Origin: a virus
Strand: one strand, 5' to 3'
Virus record (IMG/VR): IMGVR_UViG_3300008963_000727
Location: 1 to 64,000 of that record
Length of the DNA stretch: 64,000 nucleotides
Part shown: positions 2-42,442 of the stretch, piece after piece
Position numbering within the stretch: position 1 is the first letter of the stretch
Layout: each line of letters opens with the position of its first letter
Program-made: the position numbers and the translations under genes
Notes under the pieces: generated by a model
The model's input: the letters and a program-made list of their open reading frames with translations, nothing else
Database searches by the model: none
What the model was told of the DNA's origin: nothing

Positions 2-1069
2 CCAATTTACTCTGACAATTCGGGTGGCTTATCTCAAGAATTTACCAGATTAGGTGGGTCGCTAAGAAGCGTTATGCCACCAGAAATTGCAGCGGCAAAT
101 GCAGCATTATCAAGAAGTTTGGGGCAAATAACGAATATCTTTTCTGTCCCAGTTGATGATTTCGCAAAAGTATTACAAGATGTTGAAACTTTAAAAGACA
201 TTGATTCTATCCAAGACCAACCAGAACTTGTAGAGGATAATATTCAAGATATATGGTTTGATGAGAGCAGTCCTATTGATTTGGGCACAGGTCCTAGAGG
301 AAGACTATTGCTAACCGATTTAATTGGTATTGCTTCAGGATATAATATCGTTGCTCCAATACAGCAAAATAGAGAATTGTTCTTAGAATTAGAATCTGCG
401 GGGGTGTTTTTGCCATTTACTAAAAAAGGTGGACCCGAAGATCCAAGCATTGGGTTTTTTCAAGTTATTGAACATGTTTTAAATAACGAATATACAACTG
501 TCCAGACTACAGGCGGACAAGAGCCAGAAATTATTTCAGTTACAATAACAATACCATCAGGAGTAAAAGGAGAGGGAGAGTACGTAAAAGATACTTTTGG
601 AGAAGCATTTAATTCAGCTTGGTTCAATGGCATTTATCCAGAGTTAGTAGCAGCAACAAAAGCCATTGTTAATAATAATCCAGAAACCGCAAACACCATT
701 ATTGAAAACACCAAACGTTGGCAGATTCACCGTGCCAGAGAAAAACTCAACAGAGACAGGTTAATAGAACCAAATTTCTATGATCTACCACACTCCCGAG
801 AAGATTCCCTAAGATTTGCTCAGCAATTGCCTCAAAGAGCATTAGACATTACAGTTGGTGGTGCAGGACAACTTTTAGAAGGAATTGCTGACCGAAGTAC
901 AGAGGGTGGTCAAGCATTAATTTCTGCATTACGAGAAGGACGCAATATTGATCGCCTTGAATCTATCGGGATTTCAACCAGATCTATTAATTCTCCTCCA
1001 GAAGGTGACAGTATTAAGTTTGAAACATCAAAATATTCAGTTGATGAATCCAGAGACCGTCTTACATAG
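2..1069 (+). CDS. C-terminal part of a probable virion structural protein (5' end outside window)
   Basis: The reading frame is open to the left edge, so the ATG at 74 is probably internal and the true start lies outside the window. The visible 355 residues are acidic to neutral, have no membrane segment, and contain a proline/glycine-rich middle and a helical C-terminal third. I recognise no enzymatic motif. The style (long, soluble, ending just before an early-type promoter) fits a tail or baseplate protein, but that is inference from context; the function is unknown. Confidence 0.6.
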   Translation, partial: PIYSDNSGGLSQEFTRLGGSLRSVMPPEIAAANAALSRSLGQITNIFSVPVDDFAKVLQDVETLKDIDSIQDQPELVEDNIQDIWFDESSPIDLGTGPRGRLLLTDLIGIASGYNIVAPIQQNRELFLELESAGVFLPFTKKGGPEDPSIGFFQVIEHVLNNEYTTVQTTGGQEPEIISVTITIPSGVKGEGEYVKDTFGEAFNSAWFNGIYPELVAATKAIVNNNPETANTIIENTKRWQIHRAREKLNRDRLIEPNFYDLPHSREDSLRFAQQLPQRALDITVGGAGQLLEGIADRSTEGGQALISALREGRNIDRLESIGISTRSINSPPEGDSIKFETSKYSVDESRDRLT

Positions 1070-38095: not shown

Positions 38096-38914
38096 CATCA
38101 AAAAATAATAAAGTTAGTAAATCAAGGCTACCTCAAAAAAGATATTCCAGAAATTTTAGGAGTATCATATAGTTTGGTAAGAAAGGTTTCAAAAGGCATT
38201 GAGAGTAAAAATCGTTATGCATCAAGAAAAAATAACAATCCAGTAATAAATGCCAATTGTCAATATTGTGGTAAACTTTATAAAACAAAAGTATCTTTGC
38301 GTCAGCATGAAATACGGTGTAAAGAAAACCCCGACAAAATAAAAGTTAAACCTTCATATGGAATGTTAGGTAAGGAGGGAAAAGGTTCTAATCAGTTTCT
38401 AAAAGCAGAAAGATTAAATCAGCCAAAGCCTGTCGTCTCCGAAGAAACTAGAAAAAAAATATCAGAGGCGAGTAAAAAAAGAGTATGGACGACTGAACAA
38501 AAGTCTAATCATTCTAAATCTATGTTGAAAGCCGTTGAAGATTATCCTGAATCATATTCGGTGAATAACATTATTGGTAGAGTTAAACAAATTGAATACA
38601 GGGGAATTCTCTTAAAAGGTAATTGGGAAGTTAAGACCGCAGAGTGGCTAGACTTTAATAAAATAGAGTGGCAATATGAACATTGTTCTTATCCCTACAT
38701 TTTTGAGGGCAAAGAACGGCGTTATTTTCCAGATTTTTATTTGCCAGAGTATGATTCTTATTTGGAAGTAAAAGGATTTGAAACAGAACAAGATCGGGCA
38801 AAGTGGAATCAATTAACAGCAAATCTTGTAGTTATTGATAAAAAAGTAGTTGACAATTTGTATGATTATAGTATAATGCAACTATTGAATGAACATAAGT
38901 TTTTGGGACCATAG
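38090..38914 (+). CDS. PD-(D/E)XK-type homing endonuclease
   Basis: 274 residues. A helix-turn-helix-like N-terminus (LKKDIPEILGVSYSLVRKVS), a C2H2-like zinc finger (CQYCGKLYKTKVSLRQHEIRC, residues ~57-77) and a NUMOD-type motif with VSEETRKKISEASKKR. The C-terminal nuclease has RRYFPDFYLPEYDSYLEVKG, the PD...E-x-K core, as in vsr-like free-standing endonucleases. Its last 10 bases form the 5' end of the tRNA-CAT. Placement against a tRNA is typical of mobile endonucleases. Confidence 0.85.
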   Translation: MIHQKIIKLVNQGYLKKDIPEILGVSYSLVRKVSKGIESKNRYASRKNNNPVINANCQYCGKLYKTKVSLRQHEIRCKENPDKIKVKPSYGMLGKEGKGSNQFLKAERLNQPKPVVSEETRKKISEASKKRVWTTEQKSNHSKSMLKAVEDYPESYSVNNIIGRVKQIEYRGILLKGNWEVKTAEWLDFNKIEWQYEHCSYPYIFEGKERRYFPDFYLPEYDSYLEVKGFETEQDRAKWNQLTANLVVIDKKVVDNLYDYSIMQLLNEHKFLGP

Positions 38915-38982
38915 TTTAATTGGTTAAAACCCCGTCCTCATAAGACGCGTGAGTCTCAGTTCAAATCTGAGTGGTCCCACCA
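38905..38982 (+). tRNA. tRNA with CAT anticodon (Met, or Ile if modified by TilS)
   Basis: 78 nt with CCA. Acceptor GGGACCA with TGGTCCC, anticodon stem CGTC-CTCATAA-GACG, T-loop GTTCAAATC, A73. CTCATAA occurs in both elongator Met and tRNA-Ile2. A TilS-like gene at 45655 makes lysidine-modified Ile2 plausible. The 5' end overlaps the homing endonuclease stop. Confidence 0.9.
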
Positions 38983-39004
38983 TTTAAAAAAAATATGGAG
39001 ACAA

Positions 39005-39154
39005 TATAACGATACACACTCAGGGTTGCGTTCAGTGTACAAGACATGAACGGTAAATGTACTAGAACCATCGGGAGTGGCTTCCCGACTGCACTATACA
39101 GACCCTGCCAAATCCTAGGCTATCGGGCAATAAAAATGAGTGTGTATTGTTATG
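39005..39154 (+). ncRNA. Structured RNA A, closed by an 18-bp stem
   Basis: 39005-39022 pairs with 39137-39154, all 18 positions (two G-T wobbles). Inside are a TCGGGA/TCCCGA hairpin (39071-39088), a GTTC-A-GTGTAC / GTAC-TA-GAAC arm (39029-39069) and GCC/GGC around 39107-39120. About 150 nt, no ORF, directly after the tRNA-CAT. It lacks recognisable tmRNA, 6S or RNase P motifs. Resembles in position the stable RNAs C and D of the T4 tRNA region, but similarity was not tested. Confidence 0.75.
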
Positions 39155-39171
39155 GTGTCATCAATGCAATT

Positions 39172-39266
39172 TTTTAGTATAGAGACTGAAACACTCTGCA
39201 GGGTGTTCCTTTCGGTGGAGGAAGTTTACCTTTAGAGGGAAAAACCGAACAGTCTCTATTCTAAAA
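39172..39266 (+). ncRNA. Structured RNA B, three-way junction
   Basis: TTTTAG-T-ATAGAGACTG (39172-39188) pairs with CAGTCTCTAT-T-CTAAAA (39250-39266), 16 bp with one T-T mismatch. Inside: ACACTC-TGCA-GGGTGT hairpin (39191-39206) and TTCGGT (39211-39216) with ACCGAA (39244-39249). About 95 nt. Confidence 0.72.
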
Positions 39267-39282
39267 CATTGTTATCATTGAC

Positions 39283-39392
39283 AAGATGACTGCTGAAATG
39301 GGAGTAGCCGGGTTCGATTCCCGTGCACCCGGTGGCCGGTGATAAAAAGGTAGCTCCGCTCGGTGGTTCAACTCCACCCTGTCAGTCATCTT
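39283..39392 (+). ncRNA. Structured RNA C with two T-arm-like hairpins
   Basis: AAGATGACTG (39283-39292) pairs perfectly with CAGTCATCTT (39383-39392). Inside lie CGGG-TTCGATT-CCCG (39309-39323) and GGTGG-TTCAACT-CCACC (39362-39378), both with tRNA T-loop sequence and 7-nt loops, and AGC-TCC-GCT. No anticodon arm or CCA in the usual places. About 110 nt. Confidence 0.72.
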
Positions 39393-39429
39393 CTCAATGG
39401 TTTTAAAAGTAAAAAAATAGGAAAAATTT

Positions 39430-39876
39430 GTGATTGAAGAAACCGAAGAACCCGTAGTACGAATTCATCCACTTGAAAAGAAATCAGTGGATTATTTGGT
39501 TGAGATGTTTCAGAAAACACCTGAAGGTAATGTGCGTGGGTTTGATGTCACAGAGACTTACCGCTGGGGTCAGGGATTTGTTCCCGAAGAAGACATGGAT
39601 TGGGTTGAGGAAGAAGAAGTAGCAGTGTGCGACCCTCAACATGGATGGGGAGCAGAACTGGACGACCTTATCGCAGTATCCGTAGAATTCCATGGCGAAT
39701 TTGATTCCGAAGAACGAGATTATATTGAACAGTTATGCACTCGTGAAACAGAAGACGCTGATGGTCTTACAGGTTTGGAGTGGATCTTTGGTGGTGAGCA
39801 TGATTGGGAAGTGGATATGGAACAGATTCTAATTCGAGCACCTTTTGTTATAGACAAAGGCGAAGAAGACACTTAG
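39430..39876 (+). CDS. Acidic hypothetical protein
   Basis: 148 residues, GTG start after AGGAAAAAT. Very acidic (DMDWVEEEEVAVCDP, EFDSEERDYIEQ), aromatic WGQGF and HDWEVDME. No motif. It is the only coding gene between the structured RNAs. Confidence 0.72.
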   Translation: MIEETEEPVVRIHPLEKKSVDYLVEMFQKTPEGNVRGFDVTETYRWGQGFVPEEDMDWVEEEEVAVCDPQHGWGAELDDLIAVSVEFHGEFDSEERDYIEQLCTRETEDADGLTGLEWIFGGEHDWEVDMEQILIRAPFVIDKGEEDT

Positions 39877-39894
39877 TTTAAATATTAAATCATT

Positions 39895-39980
39895 ACCCCC
39901 TGTTCCCGACAGCGGTCTTCTAAACCGCTTCCTTAATGTTGGGTGGAAGGTGCAAGGTTCAATTCCTTCAGGGGGTGCCA
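39895..39980 (+). tRNA. tRNA-Arg (TCT)-like RNA lacking a D-arm
   Basis: Acceptor ACCCCCT (39895-39901) with AGGGGGT (39970-39976), discriminator G, CCA. Anticodon arm AGCGGT-CTTCTAA-ACCGCT (39911-39929) with TCT. T-loop GGTTCAATTCC. Only nine bases separate acceptor and anticodon stem; there is no D-arm. Instead CCCGAC (39905-39910) pairs with GTTGGG (39938-39943), extending the anticodon helix. May be a truncated tRNA, a tRNA mimic or a fourth structured RNA. Confidence 0.7.
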
Positions 39981-39999
39981 AACAAAAGAGAGAAACATT

Positions 40000-40578
40000 A
40001 TGAAAATTAATCTACGCAAAGCACACGCTATTCAAACACAGATTCGTGAAGAAATGAATCGTTTAGATTTTTCTACCGAAATTTCACTTAATGAATATGA
40101 GTGGGCAGAAGACCAAGTTAAGACAGCCAAGAGCAATCTTGATGGTCACTTGAAAACATGGGATAAACTAACTGGCGTTATGCTTGATATTCGCAAGAAG
40201 GTTGCACGAGCAAATGCAGATGAAGGTATTTCTGACCTCCTCGCAGATGCAGCAATGATTGACAAGCAAATTCAACTTTACACGCAGTTTGCAAATGCCC
40301 GACCACAAGATAAAACTACTGTTTTGAACGGTCGTCTTAAAAAGCGTCAGGAATCTACTGAAGCAAGCCATTATGGTGGCTTTGGTGGTGTTTCTATTAG
40401 CACAGGCGTTCTGACTGATAATGATATTGACAAATATCGCTTAGAACTTGCCAACCTTAAACGTACCAAGCAGGAAGTACAGGAAATGATTCTTGCTGCT
40501 AACATTGACACTGAAATTGAGTTAGATGAAGATGAAGAAAAACTTCTTGCTCGTTTAGGTATGATTTCCGATTTTTGA
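40000..40578 (+). CDS. Helical protein of unknown function
   Basis: 192 residues from ATG 40000 (MKINLRKAHAIQTQIREEMN); an earlier ATG at 39943 is inside the tRNA-like RNA. Mostly amphipathic helices, with a glycine-rich hinge HYGGFGGVSIS near residue 125 and an acidic end. AGAGAGAAA site. No family recognised. Confidence 0.72.
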   Translation: MKINLRKAHAIQTQIREEMNRLDFSTEISLNEYEWAEDQVKTAKSNLDGHLKTWDKLTGVMLDIRKKVARANADEGISDLLADAAMIDKQIQLYTQFANARPQDKTTVLNGRLKKRQESTEASHYGGFGGVSISTGVLTDNDIDKYRLELANLKRTKQEVQEMILAANIDTEIELDEDEEKLLARLGMISDF

Positions 40579-40608
40579 TGGTTAAGCCTGTTTTGAGTGG
40601 TAAACCAT

Positions 40609-40850
40609 CCAGAAGCGGTTGAAAAGTGAGGATGAACCCCAGTAAGTTTTTTCTTACTATTTTTTAACAGAGAACGCGTTGATGACGTGACTTTCTGCAG
40701 TGTTCCAAAGTGATTATTTGATTTTGTAAATTGTTCTTTGGAAATAAGCAGTTTGTAAATTGTGATTTGTGCATTGTTTATGCTGGATCACTGATACGGT
40801 TAATCAGCATATGTCTTTTGTTTTTGTTCATTACTCGTTCACCGCTTCTG
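40609..40850 (+). ncRNA. Structured RNA E, about 240 nt, closed by a long-range stem
   Basis: CAGAAGCGGT (40610-40619) pairs with ACCGCTTCTG (40841-40850); the helix continues imperfectly to ATGAAC (40632-40637) / GTTCAT (40826-40831). Inside: CTGC...TTCCAAAG (40695-40710) with CTTTGGAA...GCAG (40736-40751); ATGCTG (40780) with CAGCAT (40805-40810); a small hairpin 40641-40658. The direct repeat TTTGTAAATTGT occurs twice (40724, 40752). No ORF. A late promoter for the next gene begins 7 nt after the helix. Confidence 0.7.
40641..40665 (+). terminator. Weak hairpin-T terminator inside RNA E
   Basis: AGTAAG-TTTTTT-CTTACT followed by A and six T. All-AT-rich 6-bp stem, so termination may be partial; it would shut off the upstream gene. 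Confidence 0.55.
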
Positions 40851-40856
40851 TTTTTC

Positions 40857-40865
40857 TATAAATAT
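40857..40865 (+). promoter_or_regulatory. T4-type late promoter (TATAAATAT)
   Basis: TATAAATAT, five bases before ATG 40871. Confidence 0.72.
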
Positions 40866-40870
40866 CACTA

Positions 40871-41896
40871 ATGAATTTTCGCAGAGAATTTACCGTTGCT
40901 TATCCCTTTCAAGCACAATTTCCAAATGCTATTGAAATAGACCGCTCAGAGTTTTCTCTGGTACTTGACGGCATTTTTGAAAATTATAATGACGTAAGAC
41001 AAGAAATCCCACCCGTACCAAAAGAAGATATATGCTTTATATTTGAAGAAAATTGTGAGTCATATAAAGAGTGGGACTGGGATTTTGTATTAAACAGAAT
41101 TTATAGTTGTCTTAAAGATATCCCAATATTTGTCAATGACGAGTATTACTACAATATCTTTAAAAGAAATGGGTTTTCAGTTTGGAGATACTGGCCCGGC
41201 CATCTAATTGCTCCAATATATGAAATCAACTCAGATTTCGATTTACGCCTTGATAGCATTGACAAAACATTTTGTCGGTTAAGTAGTAGTCGCCATGACC
41301 ACAATTATTACATACACAAATTCTTAGTAGAAAAACAGTTGTTGGATAATACACACTGGAGTTATAGCAAGTGTGATTATCATGAGTGGTACTACAACTT
41401 CAATCGTTTTCTAAATTTAAGAGAACGTGATTATACGGAATTGCCAGAGCAGGAACAGGCTGGATCACACATTGGGCAGATGATGTCTTTTGATAGCCTA
41501 CAGCCACATATAAAAAGTGCAGTGAGCATAAATTGTGAAACTGTATTTCATGGCCATGGACCGTGTTATTCTGAAAAGTTAATTAAATGTGCTAACCTTG
41601 CTCGACCATTTATTGAAGTGAGTTCTCCACATACACTAAAAGATTTGCGAAAATGGGGATTTGAAAGTTTTCCAGATTTGATTGATGAATCCTATGATGA
41701 CATAGAAGATCCACATGAACGTATCGAACACGTTTGTGGCGAGATTGATAGGCTATCTAAAATACCACTACAACATTTTAAAGACTATATTGCGAAGAAC
41801 GAAGAAAAATTACATCATAATTTTGTTGTGGGCCAACGAATGGCAGAGTCCGTTTTCGAGCAAAATTATCGCGGCTTAATATTGCCCAATTTATAA
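40871..41896 (+). CDS. Glycosyltransferase-like protein, paralogue 3 of 4
   Basis: 341 residues. Core: YSEKLIKCANLARPFIEVSS, then LRKWGFESFPDLIDESYDD and EDPHERIEHV. The DESYD block is the best preserved of the four. N-terminal part has an RYWPGHLIAPIYE stretch and RLSSSRHDHNYYIHKFL (motif near residue 140, like RPHR of the others). Late promoter at its start. Confidence 0.75.
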   Translation: MNFRREFTVAYPFQAQFPNAIEIDRSEFSLVLDGIFENYNDVRQEIPPVPKEDICFIFEENCESYKEWDWDFVLNRIYSCLKDIPIFVNDEYYYNIFKRNGFSVWRYWPGHLIAPIYEINSDFDLRLDSIDKTFCRLSSSRHDHNYYIHKFLVEKQLLDNTHWSYSKCDYHEWYYNFNRFLNLRERDYTELPEQEQAGSHIGQMMSFDSLQPHIKSAVSINCETVFHGHGPCYSEKLIKCANLARPFIEVSSPHTLKDLRKWGFESFPDLIDESYDDIEDPHERIEHVCGEIDRLSKIPLQHFKDYIAKNEEKLHHNFVVGQRMAESVFEQNYRGLILPNL

Positions 41897-41944
41897 AACT
41901 TTTTAGCATTACCAAAATTCTTTAAGTATGGCAAAGGAATATTT

Positions 41945-42412
41945 GTGACAACCAAAATAGACTTCAACAACATCGATAAATTTTTAGAAACTTGTGGTCC
42001 AGAAACACGATTGTATGTAGGTTGTGATAGTCGGGTATTTCACAATAGCGAACGAAAACCAATGATTTCTTATACTACAGCCATTGTTGTGCATATCGAT
42101 AGCAAGCACGGTGGGAAATTGTTTTATGAAAACTCGGTTGAAGAAGCCAAGGGATTAGACAAAAAGAAACCCAGTCTTCGTTTAATGACCGAAGTGTATA
42201 AAGTATCACAATTATATCTTGATTTGATTGATAATGTTGACAATTGTTTAGACAAAGACATTGAGATACATCTTGATATTAATCCAGAAAAAGAGCATAA
42301 AAGTTCTGCAATTATAACTGAAGCATTGGGATATATTCGAGGTATGTGTCAAGTTGATGCTAAAGTAAAACCAGAAGCATGGGCTGCATCATCAGTGGCA
42401 GATGCTTTTTGA
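41945..42412 (+). CDS. YkuK/DUF458-type RNase-H-like protein
   Basis: 155 residues, GTG start after AAAGGAAT. LYVGCDSRVF (G-x-DS, strand 1 acidic residue), TTAIVVHIDSKHGGK, RLMTEVYKVSQLYLDL and EIHLDINPEKEHKSS, AWAASSVADAF follow the DUF458 family. The fold is RNase-H-like, suggesting a nuclease or nucleic-acid-binding role; biochemical function not established. Confidence 0.82.
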   Translation: MTTKIDFNNIDKFLETCGPETRLYVGCDSRVFHNSERKPMISYTTAIVVHIDSKHGGKLFYENSVEEAKGLDKKKPSLRLMTEVYKVSQLYLDLIDNVDNCLDKDIEIHLDINPEKEHKSSAIITEALGYIRGMCQVDAKVKPEAWAASSVADAF

Positions 42413-42442
42413 ATAAATACTTGAGTCAGTAGGAGACTCAAG
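42411..42442 (+). promoter_or_regulatory. Late promoter nested in an RBS-hiding hairpin
   Basis: GAATAAATAC (42411-42420) overlaps the 5' arm CTTGAGTC (42420-42427), which pairs with GACTCAAG (42435-42442). The loop holds AGTAGGA, the ribosome binding site; the TTG start follows immediately. A late RNA starting near 42425-42427 lacks the 5' arm. Confidence 0.75.

Follow-up and report, generated by a model that had tools for sequence, protein, structure and literature searches.

RNA C, a 110-nt RNA encoded downstream of a tRNA-Met gene in a virus record, is very probably a member of a structurally defined class of phage RNAs. The plan of this class is well supported: an acceptor-like closing stem encloses two or three T-arms, the last of which is located at the foot of the stem or close to it, and there is no anticodon arm. 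RNA C itself is real, conserved in plan and unusual, and can be described as a tRNA-related, putatively stable phage RNA. It lies in a window of 64,000 nucleotides (the whole stretch of DNA that was analyzed), taken from a virus record that is 194,522 bases long; the features of RNA C and of its surroundings are listed in Table 1.

Table 1. RNA C, its structural elements and the features encoded upstream of it (positions in the window)
Feature	Position	Strand	Description	Basis
Promoter-like site	38850..38877	+	sigma-70-type, TTGACA-16-TATAAT	12/12 matches; consensus match only
tRNA-Met gene	38905..38982	+		ARAGORN, Rfam
RNA A	39011..39149	+	stem-closed structured RNA, kept in other phage contigs	fold z -4.21
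RNA B	39180..39260	+	stem-closed structured RNA	fold z -3.10 (39176-39265)
RNA C	39283..39392	+	110 nt; two T-arms in closed RNA	sequence, folds, shuffles
Closing stem P1, 5' strand	39283..39292	+	AAGATGACTG	sequence, fold
P2, 5' strand	39301..39305	+	GGAGT, partner 39353-39357	predicted: minimum-energy and constrained folds
T-arm 1	39309..39323	+	CGGG-TTCGATT-CCCG, 4 bp, loop 39313-39319	sequence, fold
UGG-loop hairpin	39326..39341	+	CACC(C)GG-TGG-CCGGTG	sequence; inner CCGG-TGG-CCGG in constrained fold
Motif	39349..39357	+	GGTAGCTCC	common to TAGTCAG family and Streptomyces-phage RNAs
T-arm 2	39362..39378	+	GGTGG-TTCAACT-CCACC, 5 bp, loop 39367-39373	sequence, fold
Spacer	39379..39382	+	CTGT, T-arm 2 to closing stem	sequence
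Closing stem P1, 3' strand	39383..39392	+	CAGTCATCTT	sequence, fold

The initial annotation described two T-arm-like hairpins within one closed RNA that has a perfect 10-bp stem and no anticodon arm, and this description is borne out by the sequence, ARAGORN, Rfam and shuffles. All 10 pairs of the closing stem, read from the sequence, are Watson-Crick pairs. Six tRNAs are predicted in the window by ARAGORN, none of them at RNA C; Rfam gives no match at the gathering threshold in 39283-39392 and, at E≤10 in 38985-40000, likewise nothing over RNA C. A cloverleaf with an anticodon arm is found there by neither program, and a tRNA or an intron-bearing tRNA was rejected on these grounds. Furthermore, no ORF of at least 60 aa covers 39283-39392. 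The geometry of tRNA, with a 7-bp acceptor continuous with a 5-bp T-stem, is present in the TAGTCAG family (see below) and most other relatives and is absent from RNA C, with its 10-bp stem and CTGT spacer. The sequence of RNA C contains UGG and lacks UGGU. A circularly permuted tRNA, with T-arm 1 followed by the 6-bp hairpin as a possible acceptor, was rejected on inspection of the sequence only: this reading puts T-arm 2 in the place of the D-arm, and the relatives stack their last T-arm on the closing stem.

It is extremely unlikely that this arrangement arose in the window by chance. A pair of T-arms within 115 nt occurs once in the real window, where it is closed, and in none of 100 dinucleotide shuffles; the pattern GTAGC..TTCGA..GGTAGCTC also occurs once in the window and is absent from 100 shuffles, and a three-T-arm RNA is encoded in the syntenic position in the relative L253. 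What speaks for chance is the modest z-score of the fold: taken as a whole, RNA C is only mildly more stable than its shuffles (z -1.80), 12 of 200 of which fold as well. The minimum-energy fold (-39.4) excludes T-arm 1, and forcing both T-arms (-38.7) costs 0.7 kcal/mol. T-arm 1 has a rival pairing with the 39327-39334 region, its pair probability being about 0.46 at the three inner pairs and 0.16 at the outermost one; that of T-arm 2 is about 0.95, and in the closing stem the end pair reaches 0.55 and the other nine 0.95-1.0. RNA C is thus atypical in its 4-nt spacer and in the competing fold at T-arm 1. Given the unremarkable fold, the omission of T-arm 1 and the 4-base spacer, RNA C alone makes a moderate case, and the argument is carried by its relatives.

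On the plus strand, the promoter-like site, tRNA-Met and RNAs A, B and C follow each other in this order and direction. The site is the sole one with 12/12 matches to the sigma-70-type consensus; at a threshold of at least 9/12 matches, 3 sites are found and 2.1 are expected from shuffles. RNA C would probably be cotranscribed with tRNA-Met and RNAs A and B. The invariant 24-base core of RNA A, TGCCAAATCCTAGGCTATCGGGCA, recurs in 8 further stretches of IMG/VR, one of which is in the contig of L253; in 7 of these 8, ARAGORN predicts tRNAs no more than 1.5 kb away. RNA A has no Rfam match at E≤10 and no match in named phages. In L341 and L343, further stem-closed RNAs are encoded in tandem downstream of RNA A, and their closing stems (AGAATAGACA...TGTCTATTCT type) are almost identical. 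Downstream of RNA C, the gene at 39895-39979 (+) is tRNA-like but unusual: UCU occupies the anticodon position, the D-arm is not clear, and tRNA-Sec is matched only weakly (34.6 bits against a cut-off of 47). It has an 82.9% match in Nitrincola phage 1M3-16, and an ordinary tRNA-Arg (tct) is found near the same place in L253. The other 130,522 bases of the virus record contain no tRNA; a permuted tmRNA with the tag ANDDFYSEDFALAA is present there, outside the window (G000:140235-140576, or L469:16235-16576; ARAGORN). A detector of two-T-arm RNAs returned no further case elsewhere in this record.

The sole close relative found is L253 (contig IMGVR_UViG_3300026114_000004), in which a neighboring protein is 91% identical and the region 39986-42417 is matched at 85%. 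L253 retains tRNA-Met and RNA A (78% over 38897-39160), and RNA B was not seen there in the comparison with the window. At the place of RNAs B and C, L253:1633-1791 encodes an RNA of different sequence with three T-arms, the loops of which are TTCGAGT, TTCGAGT and TTCGACC; the last T-arm is 1 nt away from a closing stem of 16 bp, including 4 G-U pairs (counted by eye). The minimum-energy fold of this RNA (-66.9) omits T-arms 1 and 2, compared with -65.7 when they are forced. The L253 RNA has little sequence likeness to RNA C and the same plan. Their common position suggests that the two RNAs share an ancestor; replacement of one RNA by another is also possible. Searches for relatives with the neighboring 148-aa protein returned none, those with the 211-aa neighbor returned only the contig of L253, and a search for RNA C in named phages gave 19 weak matches (best E 0.3), none covering 80% of the RNA.

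Two scans of IMG/VR extended the comparison. Two T-loop motifs 22-48 nt apart were found in at least 120 stretches, many of which are not tRNAs, and GGTAGCTCC shortly before a T-arm in at least 119; the latter scan is the source of a family of RNAs that start with TAGTCAG. Because it also returned tRNA-Met-like genes, other tRNAs and coding matches, GGTAGCTCC by itself does not define the group, and it was rejected as a marker on its own. Five of the loci (L155, L204, L220, L237 and L131) are, as judged by eye, tRNA-Met-like genes with GGGTAGCTCCC at the place of a long variable arm, an element that is unusual for tRNA-Met.

The TAGTCAG RNA consists of a closing stem, a T-arm, a UGGA-loop hairpin (where RNA C has its UGG-loop hairpin), a GGGTAGCTCCC hairpin and a second T-arm. 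The alignment comprises 32 distinct sequences, namely 30 picked by script from 53 copies together with L177 and L199, which the filter of the script had passed over, with other end points for L166 and with GGTAGCTCC-scan matches outside the family left out. Across these 32 sequences, 97.4% of the cells are paired, and both sides have changed in 14 of 25 pairs, compared with 5.4 in shuffles (0/500) and 0-3 in slid versions of the structure; in the last T-arm, three pairs change together (the GAG to TCA class). The loop of T-arm 1 conforms to TTCRANN in 28/32 sequences (TTCGAGT in 26, TTGGATT in 2, TGCAAGT in 2, TTCAAGT in 1 and TTCGACT in 1) and retains the T54/A58-type positions in all 32, whereas that of T-arm 2 conforms to TTCRANT in 32/32. 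A complete scan with the TAGTCAG leader only, for which T-arms were unselected, yielded 26 stretches: 24 contain the TAGTCAG RNA, each with both T-arms, and 2 are unrelated coding sequence. The initial annotation would have been refuted by homologues lacking conserved T-loop bases, and it withstands this check: as these counts indicate, the T-loop bases are the best-kept part of the homologues and architectural relatives. RNA C scores 19.0 bits (E 0.0011) with a covariance model of the TAGTCAG family. The model was rejected as proof of homology, for it fails to tell RNA C from tRNA: an ordinary tRNA-Thr scores 20.9 bits, and the score of RNA C therefore does not show descent from this family. 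When the whole virus record was searched with the model, RNA C was not returned at E≤10.

A second family with the same plan is represented by the RNA of Streptomyces phage TunaTartare (L122:1405-1543), in which three T-arms are enclosed by a 10-bp closing stem. It matches 26 records of Streptomyces phages (Stanwilliamsviridae), and in the records that were opened it sits among tRNA genes. A tmRNA, annotated or detected as an Rfam match, is located nearby in 7 of 8 phages (TunaTartare, Faust, Moab, Comrade, Stigma, Belfort and Sham), with none near the RNA in the NootNoot stretch. The resemblance to RNA C lies in the closing stem, the several T-arms, GGTAGCTCC before the last T-arm and the tRNA cluster; the differences are the number of T-arms, a closing stem of 8-10 bp that is only 0-1 nt from the last T-arm, and the remaining sequence. 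Ten sequences were aligned, 7 distinct ones from the 26 records and 3 from IMG/VR contigs; in the stretch compared, Belfort is identical to Comrade, and L106 and L219 match NootNoot and Comrade, so that these three were left out. The closing stems were counted by script with their ends located by eye, because the alignment had lost the register of the stem. There are 7 distinct closing stems among the 10 sequences, each with 8/8 positions paired, compared with 4.4/8 when strands are swapped. The inner helices are less variable than the closing stems: 95% of cells are paired, and cells with changes on both sides number 14 against 4.4 (0/500), although the pairs with such changes number only 5 against 3.2 (62/500). 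In one contig, L152, T-arm 1 is short of one base, and one T-arm 2 loop of this set is TTTGAGC.

In the phage records that were opened, this RNA either has no annotation or is labelled in part as tRNA-Ser. The annotated tRNA-Ser (tcg) of Comrade (NC_048728, 77362-77443) and tRNA-Ser (cga) of Belfort (MW365952, 78044-78125) are located inside the multi-T-arm RNA, and the CGA of these annotations is probably that of a T-loop. The two labels are what would favor an unusual tRNA, with the first hairpin as the anticodon arm and UUCGANN read as the anticodon CGA (Ser). However, this interpretation is very unlikely: a D-arm is absent, position 33 of the TAGTCAG RNA is G in two sequences, the supposed anticodon varies while T54 and A58 are invariant, other copies have two such hairpins ahead of the last T-arm, and neither ARAGORN nor Rfam makes a call on RNA C.

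It is also quite unlikely that these RNAs are remnants of tRNA genes or products of recombination, that is, degenerate hybrids that persist by neglect. Phage tRNA clusters are rich in tRNA-derived sequence, RNA C differs strongly in sequence from the L253 RNA, and T-arm 1 of L152 is broken, all of which would fit this reading. However, covariation and retained T-loops are seen in two separate families, and the window and L253 share an architecture despite the change in sequence. The more specific suggestion of the initial annotation, that RNA C is a fusion of two tRNA 3' parts, found no special support, given that only T-arms are seen and that some relatives have three of them.

The position of the T-arm relative to the closing stem was compared in sets that had been chosen for T-arms, and partly for GGTAGCTCC, rather than for closing stems or UGGU. 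Among the 147 distinct non-tRNA T-arms listed that follow another T-arm, 43 have a 7-bp closing partner at spacing 0 and 58 have one at spacing 1, whereas the tested spacings between 6 and 30 give just 2-6 each; the 1432 true tRNA T-arms show the same peak (966 at spacing 0 and 677 at spacing 1). UGGU, as in the D-loop, is present within 60 nt upstream in 86 of the 147 T-arms listed, and its complement ACCA in 16 of the 147. Multi-T-arm candidates number 64 among the matches listed, or 75 under a looser rule, and the distance between the last T-arm and the stem is 0 or 1 in 58 of the 64 and 4 in 3 of them. RNA C shares the features of this group: one closed RNA contains at least two T-arms that have TTCRANN loops and do not belong to a tRNA, and a closing stem of at least 7 bp is located 0-4 nt (typically 0-1) 3' of the last T-arm. 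The stem of RNA C has 10 bp, and its spacing of 4 lies at the permissive limit of this range.

Most of the relatives were retrieved by T-arm patterns. Closed pairs account for 31/89 of the viral matches listed, compared with 7 in the offset control, which implies that part of the detector matches arose by chance; for contigs of bacteria and archaea retrieved with this same pattern, the figure is 5/31 with a control of 2. The detector found none in 729 kb of viral loci that had been retrieved by a protein and not by T-arms. The enrichment of the listed candidates near tRNA genes is weak (44/64, vs. 49% of random positions, in preselected loci). In one contig, L039, a multi-T-arm RNA is accompanied by a tRNA and by a GOLLD RNA (254.5 bits), with elements at 529-904 (-) and about 248-331 (-). 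In a contig of Bacillus tequilensis KCTC 13622 (L403:6110-6520), a structured region of about 400 nt contains several hairpins that resemble T-arms, together with a closed RNA that has two T-arms; the region has no Rfam match and was not found in named phages.

The acceptor/T-arm spacing of the relatives would also be compatible with a mere processing tag, whereby the 3' T-arm and the closing stem draw the enzymes that process tRNA ends and the RNA is excised from the transcript of the tRNAs and stable, its interior being unrelated to this function. In the TAGTCAG family, the acceptor is that of a tRNA-Leu-like gene located on the same contig (L030) and a CA is present at the 3' end, and lncRNAs are known to exploit tRNA mimicry for RNase P (PMC4810234). 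Nevertheless, this explanation appears improbable as it leaves the second and third T-arms, which are conserved as well, without an explanation, and the geometry in question is absent from RNA C.

Compared with tRNA (RF00005), RNA C has the sequence and stem of the T-arm and a closing stem, and its relatives show the 7+5 bp acceptor/T-arm stack; what distinguishes the group is the presence of two or three T-arms and the lack of an anticodon arm and a D-arm. GOLLD and ROOL, like RNA C, are structured phage RNAs of unknown function that are encoded near tRNA islands (PMC12286853), but are several times longer and have other sequences and folds; RNA C does not match their Rfam models. These RNAs form RNA-only cages (PMC12286853), and T-loops serve as a general packing module (PMC4810234), raising the possibility of a scaffold or self-assembling RNA in which the T-arms would dock within or between copies and tRNA enzymes would not be the target. 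The combination of GOLLD, tRNA and multi-T-arm RNA in L039 and the UGG loops close to the T-arms point in this direction. However, the T-loops keep the tRNA sequence TTCRANY, a narrower pattern than that of T-loops at large, most relatives have their last T-arm at the tRNA spacing from the closing stem, and RNA C matches neither GOLLD nor ROOL, so that such a scaffold is unlikely.

The preferred interpretation is a tRNA mimic. The elbow or T-arm of tRNA is read by RNase P, RNase Z, the CCA enzyme, TruB, some synthetases and the ribosome, and both viral and cellular RNAs mimic it (PMC4810234). There is about an even chance that RNA C is such a mimic, handled by T-arm enzymes. Host enzymes that recognize the T-arm or elbow would then read its T-arms: the ends might be formed by RNase P, RNase Z and the CCA enzyme, and the T-arms might be modified by TruB and TrmA, the outcome being a stable, modified RNA unable to decode. 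That the RNA is a substrate for tRNA enzymes, as proposed in the initial annotation, is plausible from the geometry of the relatives, from which RNA C departs by its 4-nt spacer. With a 10-bp stem and this spacer, RNA C does not have the acceptor/T-arm geometry of tRNA, so that RNase P and similar enzymes are less convincing partners and TruB-like enzymes would be likelier ones for RNA C.

RNAs that carry two or three T-arms but lack an anticodon arm cannot function as decoding tRNAs, yet they could occupy factors that bind the elbow. The decoy role put forward in the initial annotation is accordingly possible; in a more specific form, in which RNA C would act during infection as a multivalent bait or competitor that occupies a T-arm or elbow binding factor, it is the use considered most likely, albeit tentatively and with less than even odds. 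Phage tRNAs can evade immunity based on tRNA cleavage (PMC11555353), and a term search of that article returned no mention of multi-T-arm RNAs. A literature search covering titles and the beginnings of abstracts, with the older T4 RNA C literature outside its scope, yielded no description of RNAs with several T-arms. On a broader and distinctly speculative view, several unrelated phage lineages would encode an undescribed class of RNAs composed of two or three tandem tRNA-elbow modules (each a G-G loop and a T-arm) within an acceptor-like closing stem, which would be made together with tRNAs, carry T54/Psi55 and serve as multivalent baits for a host factor, possibly a defense nuclease that attacks tRNA, with RNA C of bacteriophage T4 as a single-module member. 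If so, scattered pieces of phage tRNA clusters that are unannotated or misannotated would become one searchable and testable group of RNAs, and it could be tested whether tRNA-like RNAs, and not replacement tRNAs only, are among the means by which phages resist tRNA-directed immunity. T4 RNA C, the role of which is unknown in the best studied phage, would gain a structural explanation and relatives.

T4 RNA C (species 1 RNA, rnaC; 71046-70908 in NC_000866) is a small, stable RNA encoded at one end of a cluster of phage tRNA genes. No role is known for RNAC or RNAD (PMC3014915), and a Northern blot shows the two as late RNAs (PMC9697503). Like RNA C, it has a T-arm at its 3' end, followed by an acceptor-like strand, and no anticodon arm there. 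The T-arm of T4 RNA C, CCGGG-TTCGAAT-CCCGG, directly precedes the acceptor-like strand (spacer 0), as opposed to the 4-nt spacer of RNA C; furthermore, it is a single T-arm rather than one of two or three, and expression is known for T4 RNA C and not for RNA C. Homology between the two was not detected: there are no Straboviridae among the 19 weak matches to RNA C in named phages, and the 716 records that match rnaC do not include this virus. The 5' partner of the T4 acceptor was assigned by the author, the best partner according to the script being an internal stretch. In the Enterobacter phages PG7 and AS6, the T-stem CCGGG/CCCGG is replaced by CCTGG/CCAGG, a compensated change of one stem pair, and the proposed acceptor CGATTCG/CGTTTCG, which has two U-U mismatches, by CGGTTCG/CGTTCCG, with one compensating pair.
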